A stretch of DNA of 64,000 nt from Burkholderia pyrrocinia (lineage in GTDB: Bacteria > Pseudomonadota > Gammaproteobacteria > Burkholderiales > Burkholderiaceae). Both the position numbers and the translations under genes were made by a program. Within the stretch, counting starts at the first letter, position 1. Each line of letters opens with the position of its first letter. The stretch spans positions 1,922,001 to 1,986,000 of the forward strand of contig NZ_CP070978.1 in the NCBI RefSeq assembly GCF_018417535.1, read 5' to 3'. Below are positions 3,196 through 40,127 of this stretch, piece by piece. The notes beneath the pieces were generated by a model that saw only the letters and a program-made list of their open reading frames with translations, was not told where the DNA came from and ran no database searches.

Positions 3196-3885
3196 CTATT
3201 CTCTGTCCTCGAACGCATCGCAGGCGCAATCGCGCGTATCCACCACCACGCGCAGTTCCCGACTGCCCATCAAACTCGCCGGCGTCACCGTGCGGCGCTG
3301 CCACGGAATCCGGCCGAAGTACCAGACCTTCCAGAAACCGAGCGGATGATCGGGATTCCGATGCAGCAGCATGTCGAAGGTTTCGACGTCGCCGAGCACG
3401 ATCCGCGTCGCATCATGCACGACTTCCCGAACGAAACGCGAACAGAATTGCCGGCGCGACGCGAGATTGAAACCCGTGTCGTAGACCACGCCGACCCGGC
3501 GCATCGCCGCGTCGACGAGTCGGCGCCGCTGCGCGGCATCGAGCGGCTGCTTCAGGCGCGCGATCACGCAGGCGCCGCGATCGGAGCGCGCGAGAAACCG
3601 CGACATCGTCGTGACGCGCGACAGCGGAAACGTGCTCTCCGCGACCAGTACCTCGCCGCCGCGCCGGCCGACGACGATCCCGACGTGATTCGTCCACGAC
3701 CGCGTCGCGCTTGCCACTTCGAGAAACGGCCGCACCGTCACGCGGATGAACACGATGTCGCCGATCTCCGGCTCGACCGGCAACGACATGTCATGCGGTT
3801 CGGCGGAATCGACGGTAAAGAGGCGCCGCCGACCGACGCCGAGCGGGCGGCTCATCAGCGGCCGGCAACCGGTAGTGACCGACAT
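3196..3885 (-). CDS. YebB/YiiX-like permuted papain-fold cysteine hydrolase
   Basis: About 229 residues. The order of active-site elements, TNHVGIVV (histidine) first and QFCSRFVREVV (cysteine) later, is the circularly permuted NlpC/P60 (papain-like) arrangement of the YebB/YiiX group. EPEIGDIVFIRV at the start of the domain is typical. Substrates of this group are mostly unknown; amide bonds in lipids or peptides are usual guesses. I chose the ATG at 3885 because GAGG lies seven bases upstream; starts at 3900 and 3789 are also possible. It stands alone, convergent with the toxin-antitoxin pair. Confidence 0.72.
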   Translation of the reverse strand: MSVTTGCRPLMSRPLGVGRRRLFTVDSAEPHDMSLPVEPEIGDIVFIRVTVRPFLEVASATRSWTNHVGIVVGRRGGEVLVAESTFPLSRVTTMSRFLARSDRGACVIARLKQPLDAAQRRRLVDAAMRRVGVVYDTGFNLASRRQFCSRFVREVVHDATRIVLGDVETFDMLLHRNPDHPLGFWKVWYFGRIPWQRRTVTPASLMGSRELRVVVDTRDCACDAFEDRE

Positions 3886-4030
3886 AGGGGCCTCGCGCAA
3901 GTGAACATGCGAAAGAGCATGTCAGCAGCAGCCGTGCACCGCATCCGCCGCCTGCGCGAGGGTGCAAATCCGCGCCGCCGGGTGGCGAATTTCGGTACCG
4001 GCGAGACGCGTGGCGTGCGATGCCGAGCGG

Positions 4031-4600
4031 TCAGCGCGTCGCGCCCAGCGCTACGCGCAGCCGTTCCATCAGTTGCGTGTAATGCCGCAGCACGTCGTCC
4101 TTGGGCACGACATTCGCGGTCGCGAAGCGATCGGACCACGCCGGCTTCCATTCATACGAGCCGTGCACGCTGCGGTCGCCGTCGGGCGCCTGGATCAGCG
4201 AGCGGATCCGCGCGTCGCGGCCCGGGCCCGTGTGCATGTCGAACAGCGCGTGGATATACGTGTGATACGCGTCGTACACGTCGTCGTCGAACAGGTAGCG
4301 GTAGATGTGAAACGTGCGGTCGAGCTCGCGCTTCGCGCGGATCACGTCGTCCGGCGAAATGTCCTTCCAGTAGCCGATCCACGTGTAGAAGCACAGCAGC
4401 GCATTGAGCTGCGGCGCGACCGCGTCGTACAGCGCGAGCCGCTTCTCGATCAGCCGCTGGTTGGTCCACTGCACGAGTTCGAGCCGCTTCAGCCGGCGCG
4501 CGACGAGCCAGCCGAGACACGCGACCGACATCGGCGTCAGCACGCCGAGCACGAGCTTGACGATTTCCAGCGAATTCCACGGATTGTTGAATGGCTGCAT
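4031..4600 (-). CDS. Hypothetical protein with one N-terminal membrane segment
   Basis: I do not recognise this protein. From the ATG at 4600 it has 189 residues. It begins MQPFNNPWNSLEIVKLVLG, which opens a single hydrophobic helix, followed by a basic stop-transfer sequence (ARRLKRLE) and a mostly helical soluble part rich in Tyr, Trp and Asp. The frame is open upstream to 4714, but that extension looks non-coding. It lies between the YebB-like gene and the Lrp gene on the same strand, with wide gaps, so it is probably transcribed alone. Confidence 0.6.
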   Translation of the reverse strand: MQPFNNPWNSLEIVKLVLGVLTPMSVACLGWLVARRLKRLELVQWTNQRLIEKRLALYDAVAPQLNALLCFYTWIGYWKDISPDDVIRAKRELDRTFHIYRYLFDDDVYDAYHTYIHALFDMHTGPGRDARIRSLIQAPDGDRSVHGSYEWKPAWSDRFATANVVPKDDVLRHYTQLMERLRVALGATR

Positions 4601-4820
4601 GAATGGCCCGACAAGAAGGAACGCATCCGCGCCGGCGCATGACCCGGCGCGCAGCGGCGCCTGCCCGATCGCGTCGACATTGACCGTTAGTTGCTTACGC
4701 ATCGAACGTCGCACGCCGGTACGAGCAATACGTTCGAAGCGGCGTGACTCGCCAGTTTATCGGGTGATTGTCACCGAGCCGTGACCGTTCGTCGACTCAT
4801 CGCCGCACGCCCGCGCCGCG

Positions 4821-5279
4821 CTACGTCGGCAGCGCCGACGTGAGCTTGACCTTCTGCATCGGAATATCGGTCTTCACGCTCAGCACGCCGGGAATGCGCG
4901 TCAGGGTTTCCATCTGGAAGCGCCGATAGTCGTCGATATCGGCCGCGACGACGCGCAGCAGGAAATCGCAGTCGCCCGCCATCAGGTGGCATTCGACGAC
5001 TTCCGGCATCTGCTGGACGGCATCGGCGAAGCGGTTCACGGATTCCGCGTCCTGCCCCTTCAGCCACACGCGCGTGAAGATCGTCAGCCCCTTGCCGACC
5101 TTCGCGGGGTTCAGCACGGCCACGTATTTCTCGATCACGCCCGCTTCCTCGAGCAGCCGCACGCGCCGCAGGCACGGCGACGGCGACAACCCGACCTCGT
5201 GCGCGAGCTCCACGTTCTGCATGCGGCCGTCGCGCTGGAGTGCGCTCAGGATCCGGCGGTCGATGGCATCCAGTTTCAT
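4821..5279 (-). CDS. Lrp/AsnC-family transcriptional regulator
   Basis: A 152-residue Lrp-type protein. The N-terminal winged helix begins MKLDAIDRRILSALQRDGR and contains LAHEVGLSPSPCLRRVRLLE. The C-terminal RAM ligand-sensing domain follows (GDCDFLLRVVAADIDDYRRF). It is divergent from azlCD with about 125 bp between, so it probably senses branched-chain or other amino acids and controls their export, as seen with AzlB/Lrp proteins elsewhere. The intergenic region is locally AT-rich, as Lrp sites often are. Confidence 0.9.
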   Translation of the reverse strand: MKLDAIDRRILSALQRDGRMQNVELAHEVGLSPSPCLRRVRLLEEAGVIEKYVAVLNPAKVGKGLTIFTRVWLKGQDAESVNRFADAVQQMPEVVECHLMAGDCDFLLRVVAADIDDYRRFQMETLTRIPGVLSVKTDIPMQKVKLTSALPT

Positions 5280-5404
5280 TTGGCATCCGATTCCAAAAAA
5301 TTCTCAAATCACGCGTTCAATGCCAAATTCTCCGAAACTTATGGCGACAACGCAACCCGATTCGAGTCAAAAAAGCAGACAATTCCTCCCCCGAAGGAGG
5401 AGTA

Positions 5405-6139
5405 ATGAGCAGTAGCGTTTCAACGTCGTCCGGGCTTCGCGACAAGCCCGCCTATGTCGCCGAGATGGGTCGCGGATTGCGCGCGGCGCTGCCCGTCATG
5501 CTGGGTTTCGTGCCGTTCGCGCTGGTGCTGGGCGCGCAGGCCGCGCAAAAAGGGCTGAGCCTGTTCGAGGTGCCGATGATGACGGGCCTGAACTTCGGCG
5601 GCGGGTCCGAATTCGCGGCGATCCATCTGTGGACCTCGCCGCCGCATATCGCGCTGATCGTCGCGATGTCGTTCCTCGTGAACTCGCGTCACATCCTGAT
5701 GGGCGCGGCGTTCGAGCCGTACATCCGGCGCCTGCCGCGCCGCCGCGCGTTCGCCGCGCTGTTCTTCATGTGCGACGAGAGCTGGGCGATGTCGCTCGCC
5801 GATGCGCGCTCGCGCTCGGCCACGCACATCAGCGTCCCCTATTACGCAGGCATCTGCGCGGGGCTCTACCTCACGTGGATCTCGATGACCACGCTCGGCG
5901 CGGCGGTCGGCCCGACGATCGGCAACATCGAGCAGTACGGCTTCGACATGGCGTTCACGGCCGTGTTTCTGGTGCTGTTGCGCGGAATGTGGAAGGGGAT
6001 GCGCGCGAGCCGCCCGTGGTTCGTGAGCCTCGTCGTCGCGGCAGCCACGCACCTGGCCGTGCCCGGCGCGTGGTACGTCGCGGCCGGCGCGTGCGCGGGA
6101 CTGGTCGCCGCGCTGCTGTGGGAGCCGCGCGATGCCTGA
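5405..6139 (+). CDS. azlC: AzlC-family branched-chain amino-acid exporter, large subunit
   Basis: A 244-residue multi-spanning protein of the AzlC family, which with AzlD forms a branched-chain amino-acid (and azaleucine) exporter. The signature region GLRAALPVMLGFVPFALVLG sits near the start, followed by the conserved SRHILMGAAFEPYIR and DESWAMSLA blocks. The ATG at 5405 has a near-perfect AAGGAGG site. The stop overlaps the AzlD start by eight bases, so the two are co-translated. The divergent Lrp gene is the likely regulator. Confidence 0.92.
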   Translation: MSSSVSTSSGLRDKPAYVAEMGRGLRAALPVMLGFVPFALVLGAQAAQKGLSLFEVPMMTGLNFGGGSEFAAIHLWTSPPHIALIVAMSFLVNSRHILMGAAFEPYIRRLPRRRAFAALFFMCDESWAMSLADARSRSATHISVPYYAGICAGLYLTWISMTTLGAAVGPTIGNIEQYGFDMAFTAVFLVLLRGMWKGMRASRPWFVSLVVAAATHLAVPGAWYVAAGACAGLVAALLWEPRDA

Positions 6140-6440
6140 GCTTCCGGATTTCAGCACCGTCGCGACGATCATGCTGATGGCGTCGACGACCTACCTGTCG
6201 CGCGTGCTCGGCTACGTGCTGCTGCGCAACCGCACGCTCAGCCCGCGGATGGCGTCCGTGATGGAGAACGTGCCCGGCTGCGTGCTGATCTCGGTGATCG
6301 CGCCGGCCTTCGTGTCGACGCGCCCCGCCGACCTGCTCGCGCTCGCCGTCACGCTGCTCGCGGCGACGCGCCTGTCGATCCTGCCGACCGTCATTGTCGG
6401 CGTCGTGTCGGCGGGGCTGTTGCGGCACCTGCTCGGATAA
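6132..6440 (+). CDS. azlD: AzlD-family small subunit of the branched-chain amino-acid exporter
   Basis: A 102-residue protein with three to four hydrophobic helices, as in AzlD (DUF931). It contains TYLSRVLGYVLL and the conserved MENVPGCVLISVIAPAFVS. It overlaps azlC by eight bases and ends before a terminator at 6481-6505. Together with AzlC it forms the exporter in the inner membrane. Confidence 0.9.
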   Translation: MPELPDFSTVATIMLMASTTYLSRVLGYVLLRNRTLSPRMASVMENVPGCVLISVIAPAFVSTRPADLLALAVTLLAATRLSILPTVIVGVVSAGLLRHLLG

Positions 6441-6480
6441 ACCGTTCCGACCCGCCGCACACGCGGCACCTCCACCGACG

Positions 6481-6505
6481 AACGGGCGCGCGATGCGCCC
6501 GTTTT
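6481..6505 (+). terminator. Intrinsic terminator after azlCD
   Basis: AACGGGCGC, a GCGAT loop, GCGCCCGTT, then TT, giving a short TTTT run. It closes the azlCD transcript about 40 bp after the azlD stop. Confidence 0.7.
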
Positions 6506-6617
6506 CACATCCGTGCCGACAACGCGACACGACGATTCTCACGCCGGGATGCTAGCCTTGTGGCTTGCGCCACGCTGCACTTCCCTCTCATCGCCCATCT
6601 CCGCGAGGATCGCTCCG

Positions 6618-7397
6618 ATGCAAGAAACCCGCCCGCTGTTCGACCGCGTCCTGCTGACCAACGACGACGGATTCGACGCCCCCGGCCTTGACGTGCTCGA
6701 GCAGGTCGCCACGCAACTGGCGCGCGAAGTGTGGATCGTCGCGCCGGCCGAAGACCAGAGCGGCACGTCGCATTCGCTGAGCCTGCACGAGCCGCTGCGC
6801 GTGCATCGCAAGGGCGAACGCCGCTTCGCCGTGCGCGGCACGCCCGGCGATTGCGTCGCGATCGCGGTCAGCCACCTGATGAAGGACGCGCGGCCCGACG
6901 TCGTGCTGTCCGGCGTGAATCGCGGTGCCAATCTCGGCACCGAAACGGTGTTTTCCGGCACGGTCGGCGCCGCGATGACGAGCATGCTGCTCGGCGTGCC
7001 GGCCATCGCGCTGAGCCAGGCGTTCACCGATCGCAACGCGGTGCCGTGGAACACGGCGCTCGTGCATGCGCCGGATGTCATTCGCCGGCTCGTCGCCGCC
7101 GGTTGGGACAGCGACGCGTGCCTCAACGTGAATTTCCCGGCGCGCCCCGCGCAGGACGTGCGCGGGCTGAAGGTGACGAACCAGGGCGCCGGCACGCTGC
7201 AGGGAGTCGAGATCGTATCGGGGCGCGACCCGCGCGAGATCGACTATCACTGGCTGAAGCTCGCTCGCGCGCCGCGCGACGACGACGCGGATTCGGAAAC
7301 GGTCGCGTTGGGCGAAGGCCACATCGCCGTCACGCCGCTGAAGTTCGAGCGCACGCACGACGGCGCGCTCGCGCGGCTGCGGTCGAGCCTCGGCTGA
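6618..7397 (+). CDS. surE: SurE-family 5'/3'-nucleotidase
   Basis: A 259-residue SurE-type metal-dependent nucleotidase/exopolyphosphatase. The N-terminal LLTNDDGFDAPGLDVL supplies the paired metal-binding aspartates, and VAPAEDQSGTSHSLS and LSGVNRGANLGTETVFSGTVG complete the active site. This SurE is not beside pcm or rpoS-type genes, so it may be a second paralogue. ATG at 6618 fits the family N-terminus; GAGGA lies 13 bases upstream, a little far. The coding sequence ends three bases before a 9-bp tandem repeat. Confidence 0.9.
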   Translation: MQETRPLFDRVLLTNDDGFDAPGLDVLEQVATQLAREVWIVAPAEDQSGTSHSLSLHEPLRVHRKGERRFAVRGTPGDCVAIAVSHLMKDARPDVVLSGVNRGANLGTETVFSGTVGAAMTSMLLGVPAIALSQAFTDRNAVPWNTALVHAPDVIRRLVAAGWDSDACLNVNFPARPAQDVRGLKVTNQGAGTLQGVEIVSGRDPREIDYHWLKLARAPRDDDADSETVALGEGHIAVTPLKFERTHDGALARLRSSLG

Positions 7398-7399
7398 CC

Positions 7400-7633
7400 G
7401 GGTTGGCTGGGTTGGTCGGGTTGGTCGGGTTGGTCGGGTTGGTCGGGTTGGTCGGGTTGGTCGGGTTGGTCGGGTTGGTCGGGTTGGTCGGGTTGGCCGG
7501 GTTGGTCGGGTTGGCCGGGTTGGCCGGGTTGGCCGGGTTGGCCGGGTTGGCCGGGTTGGCCGGGTTGGTCGGGTTGGCCGGGTTGGCCGGGTTGGCCGGG
7601 TTGGTCGGGTTGGCCGGATTGGCCGGGTTGGCC
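7400..7633. repeat. 26-copy minisatellite of a 9-bp unit (GGGTTGGTC/GGGTTGGCC)
   Basis: Tandem 9-mers run without gap from 7400 to 7633. The first unit ends CT and one late unit reads GGATTGGCC; the rest end TC or CC. TC units cluster in the first half and CC units dominate the second, the pattern expected of slipped-strand expansion. The unit length is a multiple of three, so all frames stay open and give artefactual PTR-, GQPDQ- and GLV-repeat translations. The plus strand is G-rich with regular GGG/GG tracts. It lies in the gap between convergent surE and the SDR gene. Confidence 0.95.
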
Positions 7634-7734
7634 GGGCGGCAGCTTCGGCGCCTGCGCGTAACGCCTGCGCGAGGCAGCCCCGTTGCCCGGTTCCGCAAGC
7701 GCACAACGTCGCGCGCGGCGCCGCCCGCACCGCA

Positions 7735-8555
7735 TCACGTCAGGTTCAATCCCCCGTCGAGCATCACGATCTCGCCCGTCACATAATCGGACGCGACGAG
7801 CATCGCGACCGTCTGCGCGATATCGTCCGGCGTCGCCGCGCGGCGCATCGGCGCGCGTTCGCGCCAGAGTTGCTGCGCTTCGGTCCAGTCGGCGGTCAGC
7901 GGCGTATCGACCAGCCCCGGCGCGACCGCATTGACGCGAATCGCCGGCGCGAGCGTGCGCGCCAGCAGCCGCGTCGTGTGATTGAGCGCGGCCTTCGCCG
8001 CTGCATACGGAATCGACGCGCCCTTCGGCCGCACGCCCGCATGCGAGCTCACGTTCACGACGCACCCGGCCCGCCCGCGCGACGCCGCTTCGAGCAGCGC
8101 GGGCTGCGCTTCGGCGACGAGCCGGAACGGCGCGATCACGTTGATCTCGTGCATCTCGCGCCACACGTCGGGCGTCGCCGCGGCGAGATCGTCGTGCGGA
8201 ATCACGCGGCTGATCCCCGCGTTATTGACGAGCACGTCGAGCCGCCCGTGCACGGCGAGCGCGTCGCGGATCAGCCGCACGCGCTCCGCATCGTCGGCGA
8301 GATCGGCCTGCACGTAGCCGCGCCGAGTTCGCGCGCCATCGCGCGCCCCGTGTCGGCCGAGTTGCGGGAATGCAGGATCACCGCGTAGCCGTCCGCCGAC
8401 AGGCGGCGCGCGATGGCCGCGCCGATTCCGGACGTCGATCCGGTGACGAGCGCGACGGGCCGATGCAGGCGCGACGCGCGCGGCTCGCCAGCGGCTTCGG
8501 TTTCAGGTGCTGTTTCGGGAATCGGGGCATGCATCGGCGGGAGCGGCGCGTCCAT
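7735..8555 (-). pseudogene. Short-chain dehydrogenase/reductase with a frameshift
   Basis: The N-terminal part, read from ATG 8555, has the Rossmann nucleotide-binding motif TGSTSGIG. The rest, in another frame up to the stop at 7735, has NNAG, the YAAAK catalytic Tyr/Lys pair and the usual VNAVAPG. The two parts join near 8317-8324, where one base seems missing: restoring one nucleotide would give ARELGAAYVQADLADD. Everything else is intact, so this is either a recent mutation or a sequencing error. It lies 14 bp downstream of the MFS gene and would be the last gene of the metallo-hydrolase/MFS operon. Confidence 0.8.
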
Positions 8556-8569
8556 ATCGGGAAACCCTG

Positions 8570-9811
8570 TCAGTGGCGTTCCCGCATCATAAGCGCGACG
8601 ACGCACCCGGACGCGAACGTGACGCCGGCCACCGCCAGAATTGCATCGGCAAAGCCGAAACGGTCGGCCATGAGGCCGGCCGACAGCGCACCGATCGCAT
8701 AGCCGAGATCGCGCCAGAACCGGTACACGCTCAGCGAACGCGCGCGCCAGCCGGGCTCGGACGCATCGGACACGGCCGCGATCAGGCTCGGATAGACCAT
8801 CGCCGTGCCGAGGCCGAGCAGCACGCTCGCGACGAGCCACCAGCGGAACTGCCCCGTCAGCGCGGTCAGCACGAGCCCGGCCGCCTGCACCCACATCCCG
8901 GCGACGATCAGCCCCTTGCGCCCCCAGCGATCGCTCAACGGGCCGGTGACGATCTGACAGCCTCCCCACACGATCGGATAGACGGCCTTCAGGATACCGA
9001 TCCGCTCGATGCCGAGCCCGAGCGTCGTGAAGAACAGCGGGAAGATGCCCCAGCTCATCCCGTCGTTGAGATTGTTGATCATGCCGGCCTGCGACGCCGC
9101 GAACAGGTTGCGATCCCGAAACGACGTCAGCATGAATACTTCGCGGAACGACAGCGCGGACGCGCCGGCCGGCTTGCCGCTTTCCAGCCGCACATGCTCG
9201 CGCGTGTCGCGCACGACGAGGATCGACAGCAGCAGGCCCGCGATCGCGTAGAACACGCCGAGATAGATCGGCACCGGCCGCAGCCCGTAGCGGCTCGCGA
9301 GATAGCCTGTCAGGAACGCGGTCACGCCCACCGCGAAATAGCCGGCGAATTCGTTGAGGCCGACCGCGAGGCCGCGGCTCTTCGGCCCGACGAGATCGAC
9401 CTTCATGATCACCGTCATCGACCACGCGAACCCCTGGCTCAGCCCGAGCAGCACGTTCGCGGCGATCACCCATCCCCAGTTCGGCGCCGCGATGATCATG
9501 AACGGCACGGGCAGGCCCAGCAGCCAGCCGACGACGAGCACGCGCTTGCGCCCCCACGTGTCGGCCAGTTGGCCCGACACGAGATTCGCGAACGCCTTGA
9601 CCAGCCCGAAGCTGACGATGAACGACGTGATGAGCGCGGTCGATTCGAGATGGAACTGTTCGGAACCGATCAGCGGCACGACGGTGCGCTCGATGCCGAC
9701 CATCCCGCCGACGAACGCGTTGACCAGCACGAGCAGCGCGAACTGCCGCCAGTTCGCGCGCAGGCCGAGCACCACCGCGCGTTCGCCGCGCGCCACTGCC
9801 GGGTTCGCCAT
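8570..9811 (-). CDS. MFS transporter
   Basis: A 413-residue major-facilitator protein with twelve predicted helices. Motif A-like sequences occur after helix 2 (SGQLADTWGRKR) and in the second half (TGPLSDRWGRKG). The ATG at 9811 has GGGAGG upstream; the longer frame to 9832 overlaps the metallo-hydrolase stop and lacks such a site. It lies in one operon with the metallo-hydrolase (start four to five bases from its stop) and the SDR. Context suggests transport of a sulfur compound or a related stress metabolite, but the substrate is unknown. Confidence 0.85.
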   Translation of the reverse strand: MANPAVARGERAVVLGLRANWRQFALLVLVNAFVGGMVGIERTVVPLIGSEQFHLESTALITSFIVSFGLVKAFANLVSGQLADTWGRKRVLVVGWLLGLPVPFMIIAAPNWGWVIAANVLLGLSQGFAWSMTVIMKVDLVGPKSRGLAVGLNEFAGYFAVGVTAFLTGYLASRYGLRPVPIYLGVFYAIAGLLLSILVVRDTREHVRLESGKPAGASALSFREVFMLTSFRDRNLFAASQAGMINNLNDGMSWGIFPLFFTTLGLGIERIGILKAVYPIVWGGCQIVTGPLSDRWGRKGLIVAGMWVQAAGLVLTALTGQFRWWLVASVLLGLGTAMVYPSLIAAVSDASEPGWRARSLSVYRFWRDLGYAIGALSAGLMADRFGFADAILAVAGVTFASGCVVALMMRERH

Positions 9812-9815
9812 CGCG

Positions 9816-10556
9816 CTAGCCTCCCGCCGCATCGCGCCCCGCGTTGGCCGCGCGCAGTTGCGCGGCGGCCGGCGGCGCGGGCGGCACGTCGGTCAGCATG
9901 AAGCGGACGAATGCGTCTTCGCGGTCGATGCGCAGGGCCGCGTTGTAGCGCTTCTCGAAGCCGATCGTCGACGCCGGCTTCCCGCTGAGTCCACGTCCGC
10001 AAACTGAACCCGAGAACGCACCGGGCAGCACTTCGACATGATCGGGCAGCGCGACGAGCCGCCGGACGCTGCGAAACAGGTCGCGCGCGCCCGCTTCGGC
10101 GCTGACGGCCAGCTCGGTGCGGCCGACGTCCCCGATCATCAGCGTGTGGCCGGTCAGCACGAACCACGGTTCGTCGGCGCGCGTGCGGTCCGTCACCAGC
10201 AGGCTGACGTGCTCGGGTGTGTGGCCCGGCGTGTGCAGCACGTCGACGACGACGTTGCCGAGCGCGATCCGGTCGCCGTCCTCTACGCCGGAAAACGGCA
10301 GCGCGACCTCGGCCCGCGCGGACAGCACATACGACGCACCGGCCGCGTCGGCCAGCGCACGGCCGGTCGACAGATGGTCCGCATGGACATGCGTATCGAT
10401 CACGTACGCGATCTTCATGCCGGCGGCCTCGGCCGCGCGCAGGTAGTCGGCCGGATCGTCGACCGGGTCGACGACCGCGCCGGTCGCCTTGCCGCCGCAG
10501 CCGAACAGGTATGAAATGCCCCCCGTATCGGGATGCAGGAATTGTCTGAGGATCAT
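9816..10556 (-). CDS. Metallo-beta-lactamase-fold hydrolase, persulfide dioxygenase/Blh-like
   Basis: A 246-residue cytoplasmic enzyme. THVHADH at residues 55-61 binds metal, followed by HTPGHTPEHV, GDVGRTEL and the C-terminal PGAFSGSVCGRGLSGKP, a pattern of the ETHE1/Blh persulfide-dioxygenase branch. It is divergent from an ArsR-rhodanese fusion gene with an inverted repeat between them, which resembles the BigR/Blh sulfide-detoxification arrangement. Oxidation of glutathione persulfide is therefore the likely role; this is inferred from family and context. Confidence 0.82.
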   Translation of the reverse strand: MILRQFLHPDTGGISYLFGCGGKATGAVVDPVDDPADYLRAAEAAGMKIAYVIDTHVHADHLSTGRALADAAGASYVLSARAEVALPFSGVEDGDRIALGNVVVDVLHTPGHTPEHVSLLVTDRTRADEPWFVLTGHTLMIGDVGRTELAVSAEAGARDLFRSVRRLVALPDHVEVLPGAFSGSVCGRGLSGKPASTIGFEKRYNAALRIDREDAFVRFMLTDVPPAPPAAAQLRAANAGRDAAGG

Positions 10557-27298: not shown

Positions 27299-27476
27299 TC
27301 ATGGAAAGCCACTTCGAGATGAAGCGGCGGCCAGGCGGTGACCAACGATCGGGGACACCCAAAACGACTGCCTCAGCCGACGAACCCTTCGTCCGCCGAC
27401 AACCCCGCTTTCAACGACGCGTCGCGCGCTTCCCGATGCGCTCCCACGGCCGTCGGCATCTCGCTCGACGCACGGC

Positions 27477-27884: not shown

Positions 27885-27996
27885 GACGCAATCCTCATGG
27901 TGATGGGCGCGGGAAAGTGGCCCCGCGCGCGCCGCTTGCACGATACGCCCGTTGTGCGAAGTCATCGCCTGTCAGGTTTGTCAGGCCCGAGCACCG

Positions 27997-29577
27997 TCAC
28001 GCCTTCTTCCCTTTCAGCACGAACGCCGCCGCCGTACACCCGATCATCGCGATCCCGGCGATCAGGAACGTATCGCTGTACGCCATCAGCAACGCCTCGC
28101 GCATCACGCGCTGGTTGATGAGCCCGAGCGCGAACTCGTGCACGCCGGAGACCGACCCGCCCGGCAGCGCGTCCGCGCGCGGCGCATGCACGCGCGCGAG
28201 CAGCCGCGCGAGCATCGCCATGCGCTCCTGGAACGCTTCGGAGAACGGCGTGACCGCCTCGCCGATCCGCATCGCGTGCAGTTTCTGCCGCTCGACGACG
28301 ATCTGGCTCATCACCGCGATGCCGATCGCGCCGCCAACGTTGCGGACCATGTTGAACACGCCCGACGCGGAGCCGAGCTGCGCCCTCTCGATGCCGTCGA
28401 CGGCCATCACGGCCAGCGCGATCACGACGAACGACTGCCCGATCCCGCGCACGATCAGCGACGGCACGATCACGTTCGATGCAGCGTCGGCGTCGAGGTG
28501 AATGTTCATCAGACACCCGGCCGTGACCAGCACGAAGCCGAGCACGATCGTCGTGCGCGGGCTGGTGCGGCGCATCAGCGGCGGCGTGAGGAACGACATC
28601 GCGAACTGCACGAGCCCGTATGGAATCATCGCGAGGCCGATGTCGCGCGCGCTGTAGCCGTGCAGTTCCGCGAAGTAGTTCGGCACGAGGAACACCACGC
28701 CGAACACGACCGCGCCGAACAGGAACTGCATCAGGCTCGCGATCCCGAAGTTGTAGCGGCCGAGCAGGCGCAGGTTGATGAACGGCTCCTTGCGCCGCAG
28801 CTCGATCGCGACGAATGCGGCGAGACCGACCGCCGCGACGATCGACAGTTCGACGATCAGGTCCGACGCGAACCAGTCCTTGCGCCCGCCCTCCTCCAGC
28901 ACGATCTGCAGCGCGCTCAACCCGATCGCCATCGTCGCGATCCCGAACCAGTCGGCCCGCCTGAGCATTCCGAGCTGCACGGGCAAGGGCCGGATCGCCC
29001 AGCCGATCGCCGCGACCAGCGCAATCGCGGGCGGAATCTGCAGGTAGAAGATCCAGCGCCACGAATACATGTCGGTCAGCCAGCCGCCGACCGACGGCCC
29101 CGCCGCCTGGGCAACGTTGTTCGCAATCGCGAACAGCGCCATCCCGAGCGGGTGTTTCGACGGCGGCAGTTCGGTGACGATCAGCTGGAACGACAGCGGG
29201 ATCAGCACGCCGCCGAACGCGCCCTGCAGCGCACGCGCGACGATCATCGTCGAGATGCTCGGCGCGACCGAGCACGCGAGCGAAAACGCGAGAAACCCGG
29301 TCGCGCCGACCAACAGCACGCGTCGCGCGGAAAACACCTGCACGAGCCAGCCGGTGAGCGGAATCACGACGATCTCGGCGACCAGGTACGCGGTGGTGAT
29401 CCACGAGCCTTCCTCGAAGCTCGCGCCGAGCGAGCCGCGGATGTCGGGTAGCGACGCGTTGGTCACGTGCACGTTCATGCCGGCCATGAAGCAGCCGAAC
29501 ACGCCGCCGAGCACCGCGACCCACGCGCGCAGCGAAACGGTATCGTCTTGCGCGGCCTGCGCGGTCGCGGCGGTCAC
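27997..29577 (-). CDS. DHA2-family (EmrB/QacA) 14-helix MFS efflux pump
   Basis: A 526-residue inner-membrane drug/proton antiporter. The N-terminal FGCFMAGMNVHVTNASLPDI, the motif around WITTAYLVAEIVVIPLTGWL, and motif C-like AAGPSVGGWLTDMYSWRWIF are typical of EmrB. It overlaps the EmrA gene by four bases and forms with it and the OprM lipoprotein a tripartite pump. Substrates are not predictable; related Burkholderia pumps export organic acids, fusaric acid-like compounds or antibiotics. Confidence 0.92.
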   Translation of the reverse strand: MTAATAQAAQDDTVSLRAWVAVLGGVFGCFMAGMNVHVTNASLPDIRGSLGASFEEGSWITTAYLVAEIVVIPLTGWLVQVFSARRVLLVGATGFLAFSLACSVAPSISTMIVARALQGAFGGVLIPLSFQLIVTELPPSKHPLGMALFAIANNVAQAAGPSVGGWLTDMYSWRWIFYLQIPPAIALVAAIGWAIRPLPVQLGMLRRADWFGIATMAIGLSALQIVLEEGGRKDWFASDLIVELSIVAAVGLAAFVAIELRRKEPFINLRLLGRYNFGIASLMQFLFGAVVFGVVFLVPNYFAELHGYSARDIGLAMIPYGLVQFAMSFLTPPLMRRTSPRTTIVLGFVLVTAGCLMNIHLDADAASNVIVPSLIVRGIGQSFVVIALAVMAVDGIERAQLGSASGVFNMVRNVGGAIGIAVMSQIVVERQKLHAMRIGEAVTPFSEAFQERMAMLARLLARVHAPRADALPGGSVSGVHEFALGLINQRVMREALLMAYSDTFLIAGIAMIGCTAAAFVLKGKKA

Positions 29578-30698
29578 GAGCCGGCCCCCTGCGTGCCGCG
29601 CGTGTCCACGCGCGCGATCACCGACATCCCGGGTCGCAGCACGACGCCGGCCGGCGGCGTATCGACGCTGATCTTCACGGGGATGCGCTGCACGATCTTC
29701 GTGAAGTTGCCGGTCGCGTTGTCGGGCGGCAGCAGCGCGAACTGGGCGCCGGAGCCCGGCGCGAGGCCGATCACGCGGCCGTGCAGCGTGCGGCCCGAAT
29801 ACGTGTCGACGTCGATCTCGACGGGCTGGCCGTCATGCATCGCGCCGAGCTGCGTTTCCTTGAAATTCGCCACGACGTACACGTCGCTCAGCGGCACCAC
29901 CGCGAGCAGCGGCATCCCGACCTCGACATACTGGCCCGCACGCACCGCGCGCTGGCCGACGCTGCCGTCGCGCGTCGCGCGGATCACCGTGTGGTCGAGA
30001 TCGAGCTGCACGAGCGCCAGCCGGGCCTGGGCGGCCGCGAGCCGGGCGCGCGCCTGCGCGATCGCTGCCGTGCTCTGCTCGCGGCGGCGCTGCAGCACGG
30101 TCTGCTGGTCGGTCTGCACCCGCACGGCCGCGCCCGCGCGGGCCAGCTCGGCGCGCGCCTTCAGCGCGTCCGCGTGTGCCTGCTCCCAGCGCTGTCCGCT
30201 CGCGGCGGATTCGGCGAGCAGTTGCTTGTAGCGCGTCGCATCGGCATCGCGCCGCGTGGCCTCGGCGCGCGCGGCGGCCGCGTCGGCGTCGGCCTGCGCG
30301 ATCTGGCTGCGCTGCTGGCCGACCTGCGCGTCGAGCGTCGCGGCCGCCGCCTGCTCGGCCTGCAGCGTCGCGTCGGCCGCCGCGACGGCGGCCTGCGCAT
30401 CGTCGACTTTCGCGCGATAGTCGCGATCGTCGAGCCGCACGAGCACGTCGCCGCGCTTCACCGGCTGGTTGTCGTCGACCGCGACCTGCGCGACATAGCC
30501 CGACACGCGCGAACTGACCGTGACGACGTCGGCGCGGACATACGCGTCGTCGGTGCCCTCGATGAAGCGGCCGACGGCCCACCAGTGCCAGCCGAACACG
30601 GCGAGCGCGATGACGGCGAGCACGACGCCCGCGACGATCAGTTGGCGCCGGGAGAACCGGGCGGATTTGGTTTTTTCGGGTACGGCAGTCGTGCTCAT
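29574..30698 (-). CDS. EmrA/HlyD-family periplasmic adaptor
   Basis: A 374-residue membrane fusion protein. One N-terminal helix (LIVAGVVLAVIALAVFGWHW) anchors it. The lipoyl half VSSRVSGYVAQVAVDDNQPV, a long Ala/Gln/Arg-rich coiled-coil hairpin (about residues 95-205), and the beta-barrel region DVYVVANFKETQLG follow. It bridges the EmrB-type pump and the OprM-type channel. Gene order oprM-emrA-emrB and the four-base overlap with emrB show one operon. Confidence 0.92.
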   Translation of the reverse strand: MSTTAVPEKTKSARFSRRQLIVAGVVLAVIALAVFGWHWWAVGRFIEGTDDAYVRADVVTVSSRVSGYVAQVAVDDNQPVKRGDVLVRLDDRDYRAKVDDAQAAVAAADATLQAEQAAAATLDAQVGQQRSQIAQADADAAAARAEATRRDADATRYKQLLAESAASGQRWEQAHADALKARAELARAGAAVRVQTDQQTVLQRRREQSTAAIAQARARLAAAQARLALVQLDLDHTVIRATRDGSVGQRAVRAGQYVEVGMPLLAVVPLSDVYVVANFKETQLGAMHDGQPVEIDVDTYSGRTLHGRVIGLAPGSGAQFALLPPDNATGNFTKIVQRIPVKISVDTPPAGVVLRPGMSVIARVDTRGTQGAGS

Positions 30699-30757
30699 GA
30701 TCGGAATGATGAGTTGGCGTGCAAGAGAACGGACAGGGGCGCAGCGAAGGCGGCCGG

Positions 30758-32248
30758 CTACGGTTGCCAGCCGCCCCCGAGCGCCTTGAACACGGCGACC
30801 TGGTCGAGCGCGACCTGCTGCGTCGATTCGGCCAGCGCCGAATCGACCGCGACGAGGCTGCGCTGCGCGTCGAGCACGCCGAGGAAATCGAGTGCACCGG
30901 CCTCGTAGTTCAGCTCGGCGAGGCGATAGGCGCGCGCATGCTCGGCGCGCGCGGTTTCGAGCGCGGCGCGGCGGCGCCACGCGGCGCCGTACCGCGCGAG
31001 CGCCTGCTCGGTTTCCTTCAGCGCGCGCAGTACCTGCGCATCGAATTGCGCGCGGGCGAGCGTGTTGTCGGCGCGCGCCTGCGCGAGCCGCGCCCGGCTC
31101 GCCGCCAGGTTCGGGAAACGCCACGTGATCAGCGGACCGACGCCCCATGCGATCGCGTACTTGTCGCCGAGCGTCGACGGATCGCTGCCGGTCGACAGCC
31201 AGTTCACCGAGCCGCCGAGCGAGATCGACGGATACAGCTCGGCCGTCGCCACGCCGATCCGCGCATTCGCGGCGGCCAGCTGGCGCTCGCTCTCGCGCAG
31301 GTCGGGGCGCCGCCGCAGCAGCGACGCGCCGTCGCCGACCGGGAACGGCCGCGCGAGCACCGGCGCCGTGCGGCAGTGCGCGGCCGCATCGGGCAGCGCG
31401 CCCGGCGCGCGCCCGGTCAGCACCGCGAGTTCGTACAGCGCCGCGCGACGCGACCCGACGAGCGCCGGCAGGTCGGCGCGCGTGTCGTCGGCGAACGCGC
31501 GCGAGCGCGCCACTTCGAGGTCGGACACGAGCCCGTGCGCGCGCTGCTTCGCCGTCAGCGCGGCAAGCCGGTCCGCGATCGCGACCGACTGCTCGGCCAC
31601 GTCGATCCGCTCGCCGTACGCGCACACCTGCGCATACGCGGCCGTCGTCTCGGCGGCCACCACGACGCGCATCGCATCGGACGCGGCCTGCACCGTGTCG
31701 GCGTCCGCGCGTGCGGCGTCGACGAGATGGCGCACGCGGCCCCACAGATCGACTTCCCACGACAGCGAGAACGACGGCGCGAAGCCCCAGCGCGTGCGCG
31801 CGTCGGTGCCCTTGGCCGCCGCGACGACCTGGTCGGGCGCGTGCTTGCCGTAGTCGACGCCGAACCCCGCCGTCGTGTCGGGCAGCCGTGCGGCGCCGGT
31901 CTCGTCGAACACGGCGCGCGCCCGCTCGACCCGCGCGACGGCCGCCGCGAGATCGCGGTTCTGCGCGAGCGCATCGCGCACGAGGCCGTCGAGCACGGGA
32001 TCGTCGTAGAGCCGCCACCAGCGCTCCGGCGGCTCGCCGCCGGCCGCGACCGGCACGCCTGATGCTGCGTGGAACGGCCCGGTACGCGCCGCGTCGGGCG
32101 CAGGCGGCCGGTACGGCTCGCCGACCGAACACGCGGCCAGCGCGGCCGACGCCAGCAGCACGGCCGCGCAGGTGGCGCGCCGCGCGCGCGGCAGTGCGCC
32201 GGGGGCAGGAGAAACGGGCGAAGCGGACGGAATGGACGGAACGCGCAT
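30758..32248 (-). CDS. OprM/NodT-family outer-membrane efflux lipoprotein
   Basis: A 496-residue TolC-like channel. The signal sequence ends in a lipobox, ASAALAACS, giving a lipidated cysteine near residue 40. Two similar halves follow, with LSWEVDLWGRVRHLVDAARA and the second-half RRRPDLRESERQLAAANARI and ELYPSISLGGSVNW, all hallmarks of the NodT/OprM family. It is the first gene of the efflux operon and is divergent from the AraC gene at 32283, which probably regulates it. Confidence 0.93.
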   Translation of the reverse strand: MRVPSIPSASPVSPAPGALPRARRATCAAVLLASAALAACSVGEPYRPPAPDAARTGPFHAASGVPVAAGGEPPERWWRLYDDPVLDGLVRDALAQNRDLAAAVARVERARAVFDETGAARLPDTTAGFGVDYGKHAPDQVVAAAKGTDARTRWGFAPSFSLSWEVDLWGRVRHLVDAARADADTVQAASDAMRVVVAAETTAAYAQVCAYGERIDVAEQSVAIADRLAALTAKQRAHGLVSDLEVARSRAFADDTRADLPALVGSRRAALYELAVLTGRAPGALPDAAAHCRTAPVLARPFPVGDGASLLRRRPDLRESERQLAAANARIGVATAELYPSISLGGSVNWLSTGSDPSTLGDKYAIAWGVGPLITWRFPNLAASRARLAQARADNTLARAQFDAQVLRALKETEQALARYGAAWRRRAALETARAEHARAYRLAELNYEAGALDFLGVLDAQRSLVAVDSALAESTQQVALDQVAVFKALGGGWQP

Positions 32249-32282
32249 CGGGTGGCAAGAAGGTCGAACAAACGATGGGCTT

Positions 32283-33131
32283 ATGGTAATTTCGACCTAT
32301 GCGGTCGATCTCGCGCGTAAAGTGCATTCGTCGTCGAGAAAAGGACACACGGATCAATTGGAAAATTTCTTCATCGCGCTCGAGCGCCAGGCGCGCGACA
32401 AGCAGATCGCCGTCGTCGCGTCCGACTCGCCGGCCGGCATGTCGTACCCGCCGCATTCGCACCGCCAGGGCCAGCTCATCCACGCAATTTCCGGCGTGAT
32501 GATCGTGCACGCGGACGCGGGCAGCTGGGTCGTGCCGACGGGCCGCGCGGTGTGGGTGCCGGGCGGCACGCAGCACGAGATCCGCTCGGCCGGCGACGTC
32601 CAGATGCGCACCGTGTTCGTCGGCCCCGAGGTACGGCCGAGCCTGCCGAACGAATGCCGGGTGATCGAGGTCGGCACGCTGCTGCGCGAACTGATCGTGA
32701 CGGCCTGCGACCTGCCCGCCGACTACGACCTGTCGCACCGCGCGGGCCGCGTGCTCGCGCTGATCCTCGACGAGATCGAGATCGCACCGTCGCTGTCGCT
32801 GCACGTGCCGATGCCGCGCCATCCCGCGCTCGTCGCGCTGTGCACGCGGCTCATCAACGAACCGTCGTCGGTCGTCACGCTGCAGTCGTGGGCGCGCGAC
32901 GCGCACATGAACGAGCGCACGCTCGCGCGCGCGTTCAAGCGCGAGACAGGCATGACGCACGGCGCGTGGTGCCGCCACGCGCGGCTGCTGCTGAGCCTGC
33001 CGCGCCTCGCCGCCGGCACGCCGATCCTCGAACTCGCGCTCGAACACGGCTACGACAGCCCCAGCGCGTTCGCGGCGATGTTCCGCAAGGCGCTTGGCGT
33101 CGCGCCGAGCGAATACTTTCGGCGGCGCTGA
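32283..33131 (+). CDS. AraC-family regulator, probable controller of the efflux operon
   Basis: A 282-residue AraC protein with an N-terminal cupin (SYPPHSHRQGQLIHAISGVM) and a C-terminal double HTH (SVVTLQSWARDAHMNERTLA, AFKRETGMTHGAWCRHARLL, ELALEHGYDSPSAFAAMFRK). The ATG at 32283 leaves only 34 bp to the divergent oprM start. A TTG at 32358 (LENFFIALERQ), preceded by AAAAGGA, would leave a normal promoter region and may be the true start. Confidence 0.88.
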   Translation: MVISTYAVDLARKVHSSSRKGHTDQLENFFIALERQARDKQIAVVASDSPAGMSYPPHSHRQGQLIHAISGVMIVHADAGSWVVPTGRAVWVPGGTQHEIRSAGDVQMRTVFVGPEVRPSLPNECRVIEVGTLLRELIVTACDLPADYDLSHRAGRVLALILDEIEIAPSLSLHVPMPRHPALVALCTRLINEPSSVVTLQSWARDAHMNERTLARAFKRETGMTHGAWCRHARLLLSLPRLAAGTPILELALEHGYDSPSAFAAMFRKALGVAPSEYFRRR

Positions 33132-33207
33132 ACTGCGCATCGCTGCGTGCAACTGGTCGCGCGCGCCTCCCAGCGGTCGACGTGGCTCACGTATGTCACG
33201 GCGGTCG

Positions 33208-34770
<1,563 letters not shown>

Positions 34771-35230
34771 GTGACCGATTCGACGCATCAATTGCCGCTG
34801 TCCGCGCCGCAGCCCGATTTCTGGGAGGCCGCGCTCGCGTATCCCGTCCCGTCGACGCATATCTATGCGGCCGAGTATCTGGAGATTCGCGGCGCGCTCG
34901 ACACCGGTGCATTCGAGCGCGCGCTGCGGCAAGTGATCCGCGAGGCGCAGACGCTGCACACGACGCATATCGTCCTGCACGGCGACACGCCCGTGCGTGT
35001 GCTCGACGCGGCGATCGCCGACGACTGGACGCTCGAATACGTGGACCTCGCCGGCACGGCCGACGCGCACGCCGGCATGCGCGCGCACTGCACGGGCGCG
35101 ATCGAGCTTGCGCGCGGGCCGTTCTTCCGCCACACGCTGTACCGCATCGCGCCCGATCACTACTACTGGTACCAGGGCTACGCGCACATCCTGGTCGACG
35201 GCTACTCGGGCAGCCTGATCGCCGTGCGCG
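34771..35230 (+). pseudogene. N-terminal fragment of an NRPS condensation domain
   Basis: From GTG 34771 the frame encodes about 150 residues of a condensation domain: PQPDFWEAALAYPVPSTHIY, then LDTGAFERALRQVIREAQTL, then the active-site region YAHILVDGYSGSLIA, equivalent to HHxxxDG. Just after that motif the homology stops and the next bases belong, in another frame, to a LuxR regulator. Adenylation and carrier domains are absent. The gene cannot make a working synthetase. Confidence 0.8.
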
Positions 35231-35491
35231 CGCCTCGCGCATGCCGCGCACGCGTACCTGATGCCGCGCCTCGCCGATCCGATCGCGCCGGCCGGCGGCG
35301 GACTGACGCTGCGCGAACGCGAGATGCTGGCATGGACGGCCGATGGCAAGACAGCTTACGAGATCGGCAAGATATTCGGGATCGCGGAGCGGACAGTGAA
35401 GTTCCATCTGCAGAACGCCGTCGTGAAGCTCGACGCGATGAACAAGACACATGCGGCCACCAAGGCCGCGATGCTCGGGCTGCTGCCCTGA
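35228..35491 (+). pseudogene. C-terminal (DNA-binding) fragment of a LuxR-type quorum-sensing regulator
   Basis: The frame from about 35228 to the stop at 35491 reads AHAYLMPRLADP, then LTLREREMLAWTADGKTAYE, IGKIFGIAERTVKFHLQNAV and KLDAMNKTHAATKAAMLGLL, the HTH domain of an acyl-homoserine-lactone receptor such as CepR/CepR2. The autoinducer-binding half is missing. It is one frame off the upstream NRPS fragment. Whether any translation start serves it is unclear; ATG at 35261 would give a 76-residue HTH-only protein. Confidence 0.78.
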
Positions 35492-35561
35492 CGGCGCGCG
35501 CCTGCACGCCGCAACCTGAAAGAAGCCCGGGCCGGTCACGCCGCCCGGGCCTCGGCCCCGC

Positions 35562-37274
35562 TTAAGCGACGGCCTTCACCGCCGGCTGCGCGCCGAAGAA
35601 CGTCGCCTGCGCCGCTTCGTCGGCCCACGCATACGCACGGTTGACGCCGCTGATCACCGCGCGAATCGACGCGGTCGTCAGGTTCGCGTCGACGCCCACG
35701 CCGAACGCGCTGCCACTCACGCCCGTGCCGGCCAGCTCGGCGATCGCGATCGCCTTCGCATCGGCGCCCTGCGACAGCGCGCGTTCCTCGTAGTGCTGAA
35801 TCCGCAGCGGCGTGCGCAGCGCGTGCATCAGCGCGTCGAGCGGGCCGTTGCCTTCGCCGCGCAGCACACGGCGCTCGCCGTGCACATCGGCGGTCAGCAC
35901 GATCGTTTCGCGACCGTCGCGTTCGGTCAGCTCATGGCCGACATAGCGCAGCGGCGCATCGCTTTCGACGTACTCCTGCTGGAACAGCGACCAGATCTGC
36001 GCGCTCGTCACCTCGTGTCCGCTGTCGTCGGTCAGCCGCTGCACGGCCGCGCTGAAATCGACCTGCAGGCGACGCGGCAGCGCGACGCCATACCCCTGTT
36101 CGAGCAGGTACGCGATGCCGCCCTTGCCCGACTGGCTGTTCACGCGAATGATCGAGTCGTACGTGCGGCCGAGATCGCTCGGATCGATCGGCAGGTACGG
36201 CATTTCCCACACGGCATCGGCGCGCTGCACCACGAAGCCCTTCTTGATCGCGTCCTGGTGCGAGCCGGAGAACGCGGTGAACACGAGGTCGCCGACATAC
36301 GGGTGACGCGGGTGGATCGGCAACTGCGTGCATTCCTCGGACGTGCGCGCGACTTCGTTGATCTGCGAGAAATCGAGGCCCGGATCGACGCCCTGCGTGT
36401 ACAGGTTCAGCGCGAGCGTGACGAGATCGACGTTACCGGTGCGCTCGCCGTTGCCGAACAGGCAGCCCTCGATCCGGTCGGCACCGGCCATCACCGCGAG
36501 CTCGGCCGCCGCGACCGCGGTACCGCGGTCGTTGTGCGGATGCACGGACAGGATCAGCGAATCGCGTCGCGCGAGGTTCCGGTGCATCCATTCGATCTGG
36601 TCCGCATAGAAGTTCGGCGTGCCGATTTCTACCGTGGCCGGCAGGTTCACGATCGCCTTGTGCCCGGGCGTCGGCTGCCAGACGTCGAACACGGCGTCGC
36701 AGACTTCCTTCGCGAAGTCGAGTTCGGTGGCCGTGAAGGTTTCGGGGCTGTATTGCAGCGTGAACCGCGTATCGGTTGCGGCGTCGGCGCAGCGCTTGAT
36801 CGTGCGCGCCGCGTTTACGGCGAGCTGCTTCACGCCGTCGCGGTCGAGGCCGAACACGATCTTGCGGAATTCCGGCGCGGTCGCGTTGTACAAGTGCACG
36901 ATCGCGCGCTTCGCGCCGCGCAGCGATTCGAACGTGCGCTCGATCAGGTCGTCGCGCGCCTGCGTCAACACTTCGATCGTCACGTCGTCCGGAATGTGGC
37001 CGCCTTCGATCAGTTCGCGCACGAAGTTGAAGTCGGTCTCGGACGCCGACGGAAACGCCACCTCGATCTCCTTGAAGCCGATCGCGACCAGCGTCTTGAA
37101 CATCCGCATCTTGCGCGCGGCGTCCATCGGTTCGAACAGCGCCTGGTTGCCGTCGCGCAGGTCGGTGCTCATCCAGATCGGCGCGTGCGTGATCGTGCGC
37201 GTCGGCCACACGCGGTTCGGCAGGTTGACGGGCGTAAACGGTCGGTACTTCGTCGCGGGGTTCTTCAGCATCAT
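35562..37274 (-). CDS. leuA: 2-isopropylmalate synthase (LeuA)
   Basis: A 570-residue enzyme of the longer LeuA type, condensing acetyl-CoA with 2-ketoisovalerate in leucine synthesis. The catalytic arginine/metal motif is [14 protein letters not shown], the HxH metal site is [13 protein letters not shown], and [20 protein letters not shown] follows. The C-terminal third is the leucine-binding regulatory domain ([20 protein letters not shown]). Start ATG 37274 follows GAGGA. A leucine-rich leader peptide about 240 bp upstream points to attenuation. It is not beside leuBCD, so it is probably a second copy. Confidence 0.94.
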
Positions 37275-37447
37275 GATGTTCGGTCCTCGGTCTGTTTGTC
37301 GGGAAACCGCGGCGCGGCGGCCATCACGGGTAGAGGCCGGCTGCACGCGCAGCGGTGAAAACGGCAAGAAATCAGCACAACGGCAAAGCGGTACGGCAAA
37401 CGACAGCCTTGGCGGTTGGGCGACCGGGACGGAGCGGAGCGATACGG

Positions 37448-38774: not shown

Positions 38775-40127
38775 TTAGGTCGACCTTGCAACAGCCTGCG
38801 TCCACGCGGCCGAGGCCAGTTGCGTACGCGCGGCATGCGCCACGCGGTTGAACGCCACCCGCCGCTCGCCCTTCAGCTTCGCCGCATTGGCCGCGTGCAC
38901 CAGCGCGACCGGATCGACGAGACGGTCATGTCGCCGGACCTCGAAGTGCAGATGCGGGCCGGTCGCCGTCCCGGTGCTGCCGACCGCACCGACGCGTTGA
39001 CCGCGCACGACGCGCGCGCCGGTTCGCAGCGTCGGCTCGAACGCCGACAGGTGCGCGTAGTACGACGCATAGCCGCCGTCATGACGAATCACCACATACT
39101 TGCCGTAGCCGCGCGGCTCGGTGCCGATGAACGACACGACGCCGCGCTCCGACGCATGGACGGCGCGGCCCGCCGGTGCAGCAAGATCGACGCCGGAATG
39201 CACGTGACGCGCGCCGGTCACCGGATGCACGCGCACGCCGAACTGCGAGCTGATCCGCTTCGCGGCGACCGGCATCGCGAACCGCGAGCCTGCGAGCGGC
39301 AGGCCGTCGAAGTCGTAATAAGCGCCCGGCGAGCCTGCATCGGGCGCGAACCACACACCCGCGACGTGCTGGCCGCGAAAACGGATGTCGAGCGCCGTCA
39401 CGCGCACGCCGCCCGGCAGCGTCGCATCGTCGTCCGGTTCGAATGTCACGCGGAAGGTGTCGCCGATCGCGCCGCGCTGCTTCGGATCGACGCGCCCGGC
39501 CAGCATGCGGGTGATTTGCGCGGCAACGCCGGCCGGCAGTTCGGCGCGCGCCAGCGATGCTTGCAGGCTGCCGTCAATCGCACCGGCGCGCGTGCCGCGA
39601 TCCGGCGCCGCGAGCATGAACGGCTCGGCGGAGGCGAGATCGACCGGACGCCGCTCGAACGCCGCTTGCGTGCCCATCGCGGGCAATGGCGACGAAAGAC
39701 CGTAGTCGAACCGGGACGCGTACGCGCGTTCGACCGCATCGCGCGCCGCATCGCACAGCACGCGGTAAGCCACGCATGCGCCGAAGCGCGCAACGGGGTC
39801 GTCGCGATCGATGCCCGTCGGCATGTTCGACGCATGCGATGCGTATGCGACGTCGAGCGGCGCTGCCGCCGATGCGCGCAAGCCGCCCCACGTCGTCCGG
39901 GCGGAATTGAAAAAAGGCACGTCGACAAGGTCGGTCGATTCCGCCGTCGCGGATGCGACGGGTGCGGCATCGCGAGCGGCTTGGGCTGCCGCAGCGTGAG
40001 CGCCGGCCACGCAGGCTGTCGCGACGACACCGCGCAACAGCACGCGGCGAATCGGAAAACACGGAGCACTGCGTCGGGCGGATTGACCTTGTTCGCGTGC
40101 GAGACGGAAACGCAGGTCTAATCGCAT
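38775..40127 (-). CDS. M23-family (LytM) metallopeptidase
   Basis: A 450-residue exported protein. The hydrophobic segment RVLLRGVVATACVAGAHAAA looks like a signal peptide. The C-terminal LytM domain has GARHVHSGVDLAAPAGRAVH and GTATGPHLHFEVRRHDRLVD, which give the zinc ligands HxxxD and HxH. The middle part resembles the OapA/SH3-like region of DipM/YebA-type proteins. It probably cleaves or regulates cleavage of peptidoglycan peptide bonds. Its 3' end overlaps the frameshifted lectin tail but not the original lectin. Confidence 0.9.
   Translation of the reverse strand: MRLDLRFRLAREQGQSARRSAPCFPIRRVLLRGVVATACVAGAHAAAAQAARDAAPVASATAESTDLVDVPFFNSARTTWGGLRASAAAPLDVAYASHASNMPTGIDRDDPVARFGACVAYRVLCDAARDAVERAYASRFDYGLSSPLPAMGTQAAFERRPVDLASAEPFMLAAPDRGTRAGAIDGSLQASLARAELPAGVAAQITRMLAGRVDPKQRGAIGDTFRVTFEPDDDATLPGGVRVTALDIRFRGQHVAGVWFAPDAGSPGAYYDFDGLPLAGSRFAMPVAAKRISSQFGVRVHPVTGARHVHSGVDLAAPAGRAVHASERGVVSFIGTEPRGYGKYVVIRHDGGYASYYAHLSAFEPTLRTGARVVRGQRVGAVGSTGTATGPHLHFEVRRHDRLVDPVALVHAANAAKLKGERRVAFNRVAHAARTQLASAAWTQAVARST

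Follow-up and report, generated by a model that had tools for sequence, protein, structure and literature searches.

A probable remnant of a decayed ham (fragin/valdiazen) cluster, joined to part of cepR2, in Burkholderia pyrrocinia

In the available part of the description of the ham cluster (PMC5878181), hamABCDE and hamFG form opposite operons, HamF is a free-standing starter condensation domain and HamD has the domain order A-T-R. The same source places cepS, cepR2 and leuA on one side of the cluster and a LysR gene, a pump and a second AraC gene on the other, and its mutants show that hamB, hamF and hamG are dispensable for the signal and, by implication, that the other four ham genes are not. 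HamC is characterized, in the part of PMC11659414 that we cite, as an N-oxygenase acting on HamD-bound valine. The Burkholderia cenocepacia record NZ_CP091013.1 (L043) has the order AraC, LysR, hamE-D-C-B-A (minus strand), hamF, hamG, cepS (minus), cepR2, leuA (minus) and three lectin genes, in agreement with the neighbourhood given in the accessible text of PMC5878181; these gene names rest on order and recognised motifs, the family searches having covered the window proteins.

We analysed a stretch of 64,000 nucleotides from Burkholderia pyrrocinia (hereafter the window) against 65 genomes of the genus, which carry G-numbers (G000 being the window's own genome), and against the named records L043 and L044. 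The locus comparison covered 12 loci of our own choice, drawn from ten genomes and the two named records. An open frame in the window has two halves that lie apart in four relatives (G007, G026, G041 and L043, hereafter the four carriers), and the locus is therefore identified as that of the ham (fragin/valdiazen) cluster. By these comparisons the site is most probably a decayed remnant of this cluster together with its cepS-cepR2 regulators, a reading to which we assign a probability of about 0.93. That it might be a ham/cepR2 locus had been guessed in the initial annotation, made from the letters of the window, and the gene order in L043 and the published neighbourhood both agree with that guess. 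The coordinates of all features are collected in Table 1.

Table 1. Features of the locus in window coordinates, with strand and the basis of each assignment.
Feature	Position	Strand	Basis
Block common to ham carriers: efflux genes, AraC, ham remnant, cepR2 remnant	28003..35550		Stepwise identity, trees; absent from G032
Three efflux genes: EmrB-type MFS, EmrA-like adaptor, outer-membrane channel	27997..32248	-	ORFs; Pfam/NCBIfam for MFS and channel
AraC-type regulator, C-terminus intact, true start perhaps further in	32172..33131	+	Pfam HTH_18, AraC_binding
LysR scrap, 25 bp exact, interior of lost LysR gene	33138..33162	+	Equals L043 9316-9340; last 8 bp (GGTCGCGC) common to hamC
hamC remnant, about first 19 codons	33155..33211	-	Comparison with L043; protein-search match of residues 1-23
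hamB, cupin-like, whole frame, 129 aa	33208..33597	-	Place and identity to relatives
hamA, DUF3050/haem-oxygenase-like, whole, 260 aa	33594..34376	-	PF11251, 286.9 bits
Chimaeric open frame, 264 aa: hamF start, then out-of-frame cepR2 and downstream DNA	34771..35565	+	ORF list, frame comparison
hamF remnant: first ~154 of about 453 codons	34771..35231	+	Pfam, alignment to relatives
hamF/cepR2 deletion joint	35226..35231		3781-3788 bp absent relative to four relatives
cepR2 remnant: last ~86 of 237 codons, LuxR DNA-binding domain	35232..35491	+	Pfam GerE, alignment
leuA-type 2-isopropylmalate synthase, intact	35562..37367	-	ORF, family search, relatives
bclA-type lectin gene, reading frame shifted in last codons	38213..38605	+	PF07472, 68.4 bits; alignment to relatives
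Joint of further deletion, ~3 kb relative to G032	38779..38784		GTCGAC common to both sides

The initial annotation had described an NRPS condensation domain fused out of frame to the end of a LuxR protein, and Pfam searches together with frame comparison bore out the fusion. Residues 6-148 of frame 34771 matched the condensation domain PF00668 (profile positions 3-148 of 456, 50.2 bits), the likeness ending at ...HILVDGYSGSLIA, just past HILVDG. Frame 34772, a different one, carries a LuxR C-terminus whose LuxR-type HTH is present (GerE, 59 bits) and whose stop lies at 35491. Frame 34771 itself stays open as far as 35565, and no Pfam match other than the condensation domain was found along it. 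In L043 the first piece starts a 453-codon condensation gene and the second ends a 237-codon LuxR gene. The domain had thus been rightly called a condensation domain and wrongly ascribed to an NRPS, as it belongs to HamF and not to the NRPS HamD.

Comparison with the relatives set hamF codon ~154 directly next to cepR2 codon ~151, out of frame. The same halves are separated by 3781 bp in L043, 3788 bp in G007, 3784 bp in G041 and 3781 bp in G026, as expected of the deletion scar that had been proposed, and the break that had been placed near 35222-35230 falls, by alignment to these relatives, at about 35226-35231. Compared with the carriers, hamG and cepS fell wholly within the 3.8-kb loss, along with the remainder of hamF and most of cepR2. 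The joint is not a product of chance. When positions 34500-35560 were searched against the 65 Burkholderia genomes, a long match through the joint (1-1061) was found only in G000, among the matches listed, which are the best by score; G007, G041 and G026 matched in two pieces (1-732 and 723/733-1059), and in L043 the two pieces were likewise apart. A few short weak matches (<100 bp) reach the joint, such as one in G036 (707-798, 73%), and we take these to be chance. The microhomology CGCCTCGC that had been suggested at the joint is absent from the hamF side; at best 4-5 bp (GCGCG) are common in register to the hamF and cepR2 parents, and, because the DNA there is so GC-rich, this overlap says little and is weak evidence for whatever mechanism.

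A conserved fusion gene was considered as a candidate and rejected, no such gene having been found across many species: only one of the eight proteins matching the fused ORF spans the joint, namely the window's own (97% covered), the other seven being condensation proteins with 58-61% of the fused ORF covered, and none of the other 64 genomes has a long joint-spanning match among those listed. Nor is the scar named in any of the titles and opening lines of abstracts listed in literature searches. A functional new gene, in which the cell uses the condensation piece or the freed LuxR DNA-binding domain, would suit the observation that each piece is stop-free in its own frame and that the private changes of the cepR2 piece are all synonymous, but the fusion is out of frame, its joint is spanned by that single protein, and no good ribosome-binding site was seen by eye before the first ATG of the LuxR piece; we hold such a gene to be highly improbable.

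Intact HamF represents a database cluster of 172 sequences. The cluster represented by the 76-aa LuxR remnant has 7 sequences and a longest contig of 6741 bases, and the window's own fused protein sits on a contig of 3307718 bases. The remnant therefore seems to be present outside the window's large contig, as a stand-alone ORF, which hints that the scar is shared by another assembly. This bears on the suggestion that an assembler dropped the missing genes: the joints are read here from assembled sequence, but the genome, in 3 contigs, has a completeness rating of 100% and the remnant seemingly recurs in that other assembly, making an assembly artefact very unlikely.

Between the AraC gene and hamC there is a second set of junctions. 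The match to L043 breaks off at the AraC stop (33131) and resumes at 33155 inside hamC, an interval of 6120 bp in L043, and this loss of ~6.1 kb took most of the LysR gene, hamE, hamD and nearly all of hamC. The AraC gene itself is 96-97% identical to those of G007, G026 and G041. Within the gap a 25-bp scrap of the LysR gene is left (Table 1), and there must therefore be at least two junctions between AraC and hamC; as a control, 300 random 45-bp window segments were compared with the same interval, and their longest exact match was 19 bp. The scrap divides the loss into about 0.68 kb on its AraC side and about 5.42 kb on its hamC side, and at the latter joint GGTCGCGC is common to both sides.

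The initial annotation had the oxygenase, the NRPS and the regulator lost in one event. A simple deletion of this kind has in its favour that the 3.78-kb loss at 35226-35231 is real, but the intact hamB and hamA separate that loss from the sites of hamC, hamD and hamE, which went through at least two further junctions. The gene order in the four relatives refutes the single simple deletion, leaving it next to no chance. Because hamB and hamA stand whole between the two sets of joints, one simple deletion is impossible, and either successive deletions or one complex rearrangement could have occurred. Short templated inserts and short overlaps at joints are marks of template-switching events. 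In a variant of the best explanation, template switching during repair would have made every junction together in one complex rearrangement, the LysR scrap being a short templated insert; the short stretch at 33138-33162, a copy of part of the lost interval, and the short overlaps at the joints would fit this, but hamB and hamA remain in place and in order between the junctions and successive ordinary deletions are equally simple, so we give the variant a small but appreciable chance.

Two of the seven ham genes, hamA and hamB, are whole, and their DNA is 96% identical to that of the carriers. HamB has a weak Cupin_7 match (19.9 bits, under the 27-bit Pfam cut-off), and HamA retains all 66 of the 66 columns that are invariant in 20 relatives chosen by us from 80 loci. 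In protein searches, HamC was found at full length in G007, G026, G041 and G028, as residues 1-23 only in G000 and not in G032; HamE was found at full length in the same four genomes and in neither G000 nor G032. The CepR2 search of G000 returned residues 146-237 at the window site (91% identity) and, at another place on that contig, a LuxR protein at 36%; the N-terminal autoinducer-binding domain is absent at the site, where the match begins at residue 146 of 237.

DNA searches gave a consistent picture. Only bases 1-473 of hamF are present in G000. For hamG there is a 78% match elsewhere on C2, of a type present in most genomes of the genus, and for hamD just adenylation-type stretches of 67-69% and one 75-bp match, all elsewhere. 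The LysR-to-hamC DNA (L043 8755-14755, run against G000 alone) gave eight matches of paralogue grade (<=69% over >200 bp, 71% over 191 bp in one case and 87% over 75 bp in another). Relocation of the lost genes within the genome was rejected, by protein for hamC, cepR2 and hamE and by DNA for the LysR-to-hamC and hamF-to-cepR2 intervals. Because ham genes that are not dispensable, including that of HamC, are gone, the strain is expected, from these gene losses, to be unable to make valdiazen or fragin. Separately, another short condensation match lies at G000:C1:993865-994446 (profile 7-204 of 456), in an open frame of 385 aa.

Selection on the remnants was gauged against the four carriers with hamFG, dropping insertions relative to the window; counts of changes private to the window are small. 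HamA had a dN/dS of 0.04-0.06, with 9 synonymous and 0 non-synonymous private changes, and hamB 0.37-0.38, with 1 and 4. The hamF piece had 0.16-0.26 (11 synonymous and 7 non-synonymous private changes, counted with no outgroup) and the cepR2 piece 0.09-0.12 (5 and 0). Between carriers (G007 and L043), dN/dS was 0.04 for hamA, 0.06 for hamB, 0.24 for hamF and 0 for cepR2. The low values of both pieces at the joint are most simply read as the sign of a recent deletion. We infer that the piece of hamF and the piece of cepR2 there are no longer functional; their low dN/dS is no proof of lost function, though a recent deletion explains it. The difference between hamB and hamA may, on these small numbers, reflect relaxed selection on hamB.

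A reduced system might still be at work, with HamA serving a use outside fragin and valdiazen synthesis or the freed CepR2 DNA-binding domain acting as a signal-independent regulator under the hamF promoter. HamA would fit this best, by its private changes and its 66 retained columns, and hamB would not fit. We regard such a system as unlikely.

The remnant lies in a block whose history appears to differ from that of its surroundings. Identity to the four carriers, taken per 500-bp step, is 91-97% at 28.0-34.5 kb and 89-93% at 34.5-35.5 kb. The nearest relative in the left flank and in leuA is G032, in which window positions 27987 and 35555 are only about 30 bp apart; past leuA, G061 and others are equally near. 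The block is also missing from G006 and G061. G032 has about 3.8 kb foreign to the window between matches ending at 27315 and starting at 27400. The divergence of G000 from the carriers, relative to that of G058, was lowest in AraC (0.33) and the efflux genes (0.44), higher in leuA (0.84) and 1.00 in the left flank.

Trees were built with rows covering <70% of a segment omitted, AU tests used trees of the quick kind, and the efflux tests were run without G032, which has no such segment. In the efflux segment, grouping G000 with G058 was rejected (AU p 1e-40), G000 falling with the carriers and B. arboris; its grouping with the four carriers alone, B. arboris excluded, was not rejected (p 0.148). 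In the left flank, G000 with the carriers was rejected (AU p 0.019). In leuA the same grouping was not rejected (AU p 0.074) and a clade of G000, G032 and G058 was (p 0.016), yet G000 pairs with G032 there (support 92). Acquisition of the block by horizontal transfer is therefore likely, on the evidence of identity and trees, and a horizontal origin is less firm on the right side, at leuA. As an alternative, the block may be absent from G032 through loss there, instead of gain in G000. The B. arboris record NZ_CP101525.1 (L044) carries, at 3837-10001, efflux genes 93.8% identical to the window's and AraC, then about 1.07 kb and then the end of leuA, and no ham matches were found between AraC and leuA. 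Outside the block, the plasmid collection gave B. arboris as its best places when ranked by coverage times identity, at 91.7% over 85% and 90.1% over 71% of the queries.

Across the genus, the whole cluster occupies this locus in three of the 65 genomes (G007, G026 and G041), with the remnant in G000. The LysR match ends <100 bp from the leuA match, with no ham between, in ten of the 65 (G001, G005, G008, G018, G023, G027, G049, G051, G053 and G057); the two matches are 1.6 kb apart in G058, and in G022 AraC and LysR are present but this leuA is not. A close leuA (>=88%) occurs in 32 of the 65. The leuA and lectin neighbours, which the initial annotation had proposed looking for in strains with a complete cluster, stand at the same place in L043. 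In the window, the efflux genes have no internal stops, and the adaptor is one that we take to be EmrA-like from its place and from its sequence by eye. The further deletion downstream of the lectin gene took other lectin genes known from relatives.

The remnant would have arisen in a block brought in by recombination, its donor being related to the B. cenocepacia-like group that carries ham. By the comparisons above, a loss of ~3.78 kb joined hamF codon ~154 to cepR2 codon ~151, and a separate one of about 6.1 kb, from the AraC gene to hamC codon ~19, took place through at least two junctions; hamA and hamB stayed whole, as did the efflux genes and one AraC gene. These deletions would be recent compared with the split from that group. 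The locus is a clear example of a signal-plus-antifungal cluster being lost step by step, with breakpoints mapped and efflux genes retained, and a strain that keeps the pump, probably without the product, could serve studies of fragin, valdiazen and CepR2 as a naturally occurring comparison. The locus shows ordinary cluster decay with a mosaic history, and no new kind of gene or system.

Set against the ham cluster of B. cenocepacia H111, as far as its description in PMC5878181 was available, the window likewise has hamA and hamB whole and in order, the start of hamC and the first third of hamF, and among the neighbours the efflux genes, AraC, part of cepR2, leuA and lectins. Unlike that cluster, the window is without hamD, hamE, hamG and cepS, nearly all of hamC, the rest of hamF and most of the LysR gene; its transporter is an EmrB-type MFS, whereas an RND pump and a tripartite multidrug system are mentioned in the accessible text on H111. 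Of CepR2, described in part in PMC12838280 as an orphan LuxR regulator of B. cenocepacia, the window keeps the last ~86 codons, without the ligand-binding part and the start. G028 has hamABCDE-matching DNA and cepS/cepR2 without a hamFG match, whereas the window has no complete set. With such hamABCDE loci lacking hamFG, among them the mgo/pvf clusters in the part of PMC5878181 that covers them, the window has a hamA-type gene in common.
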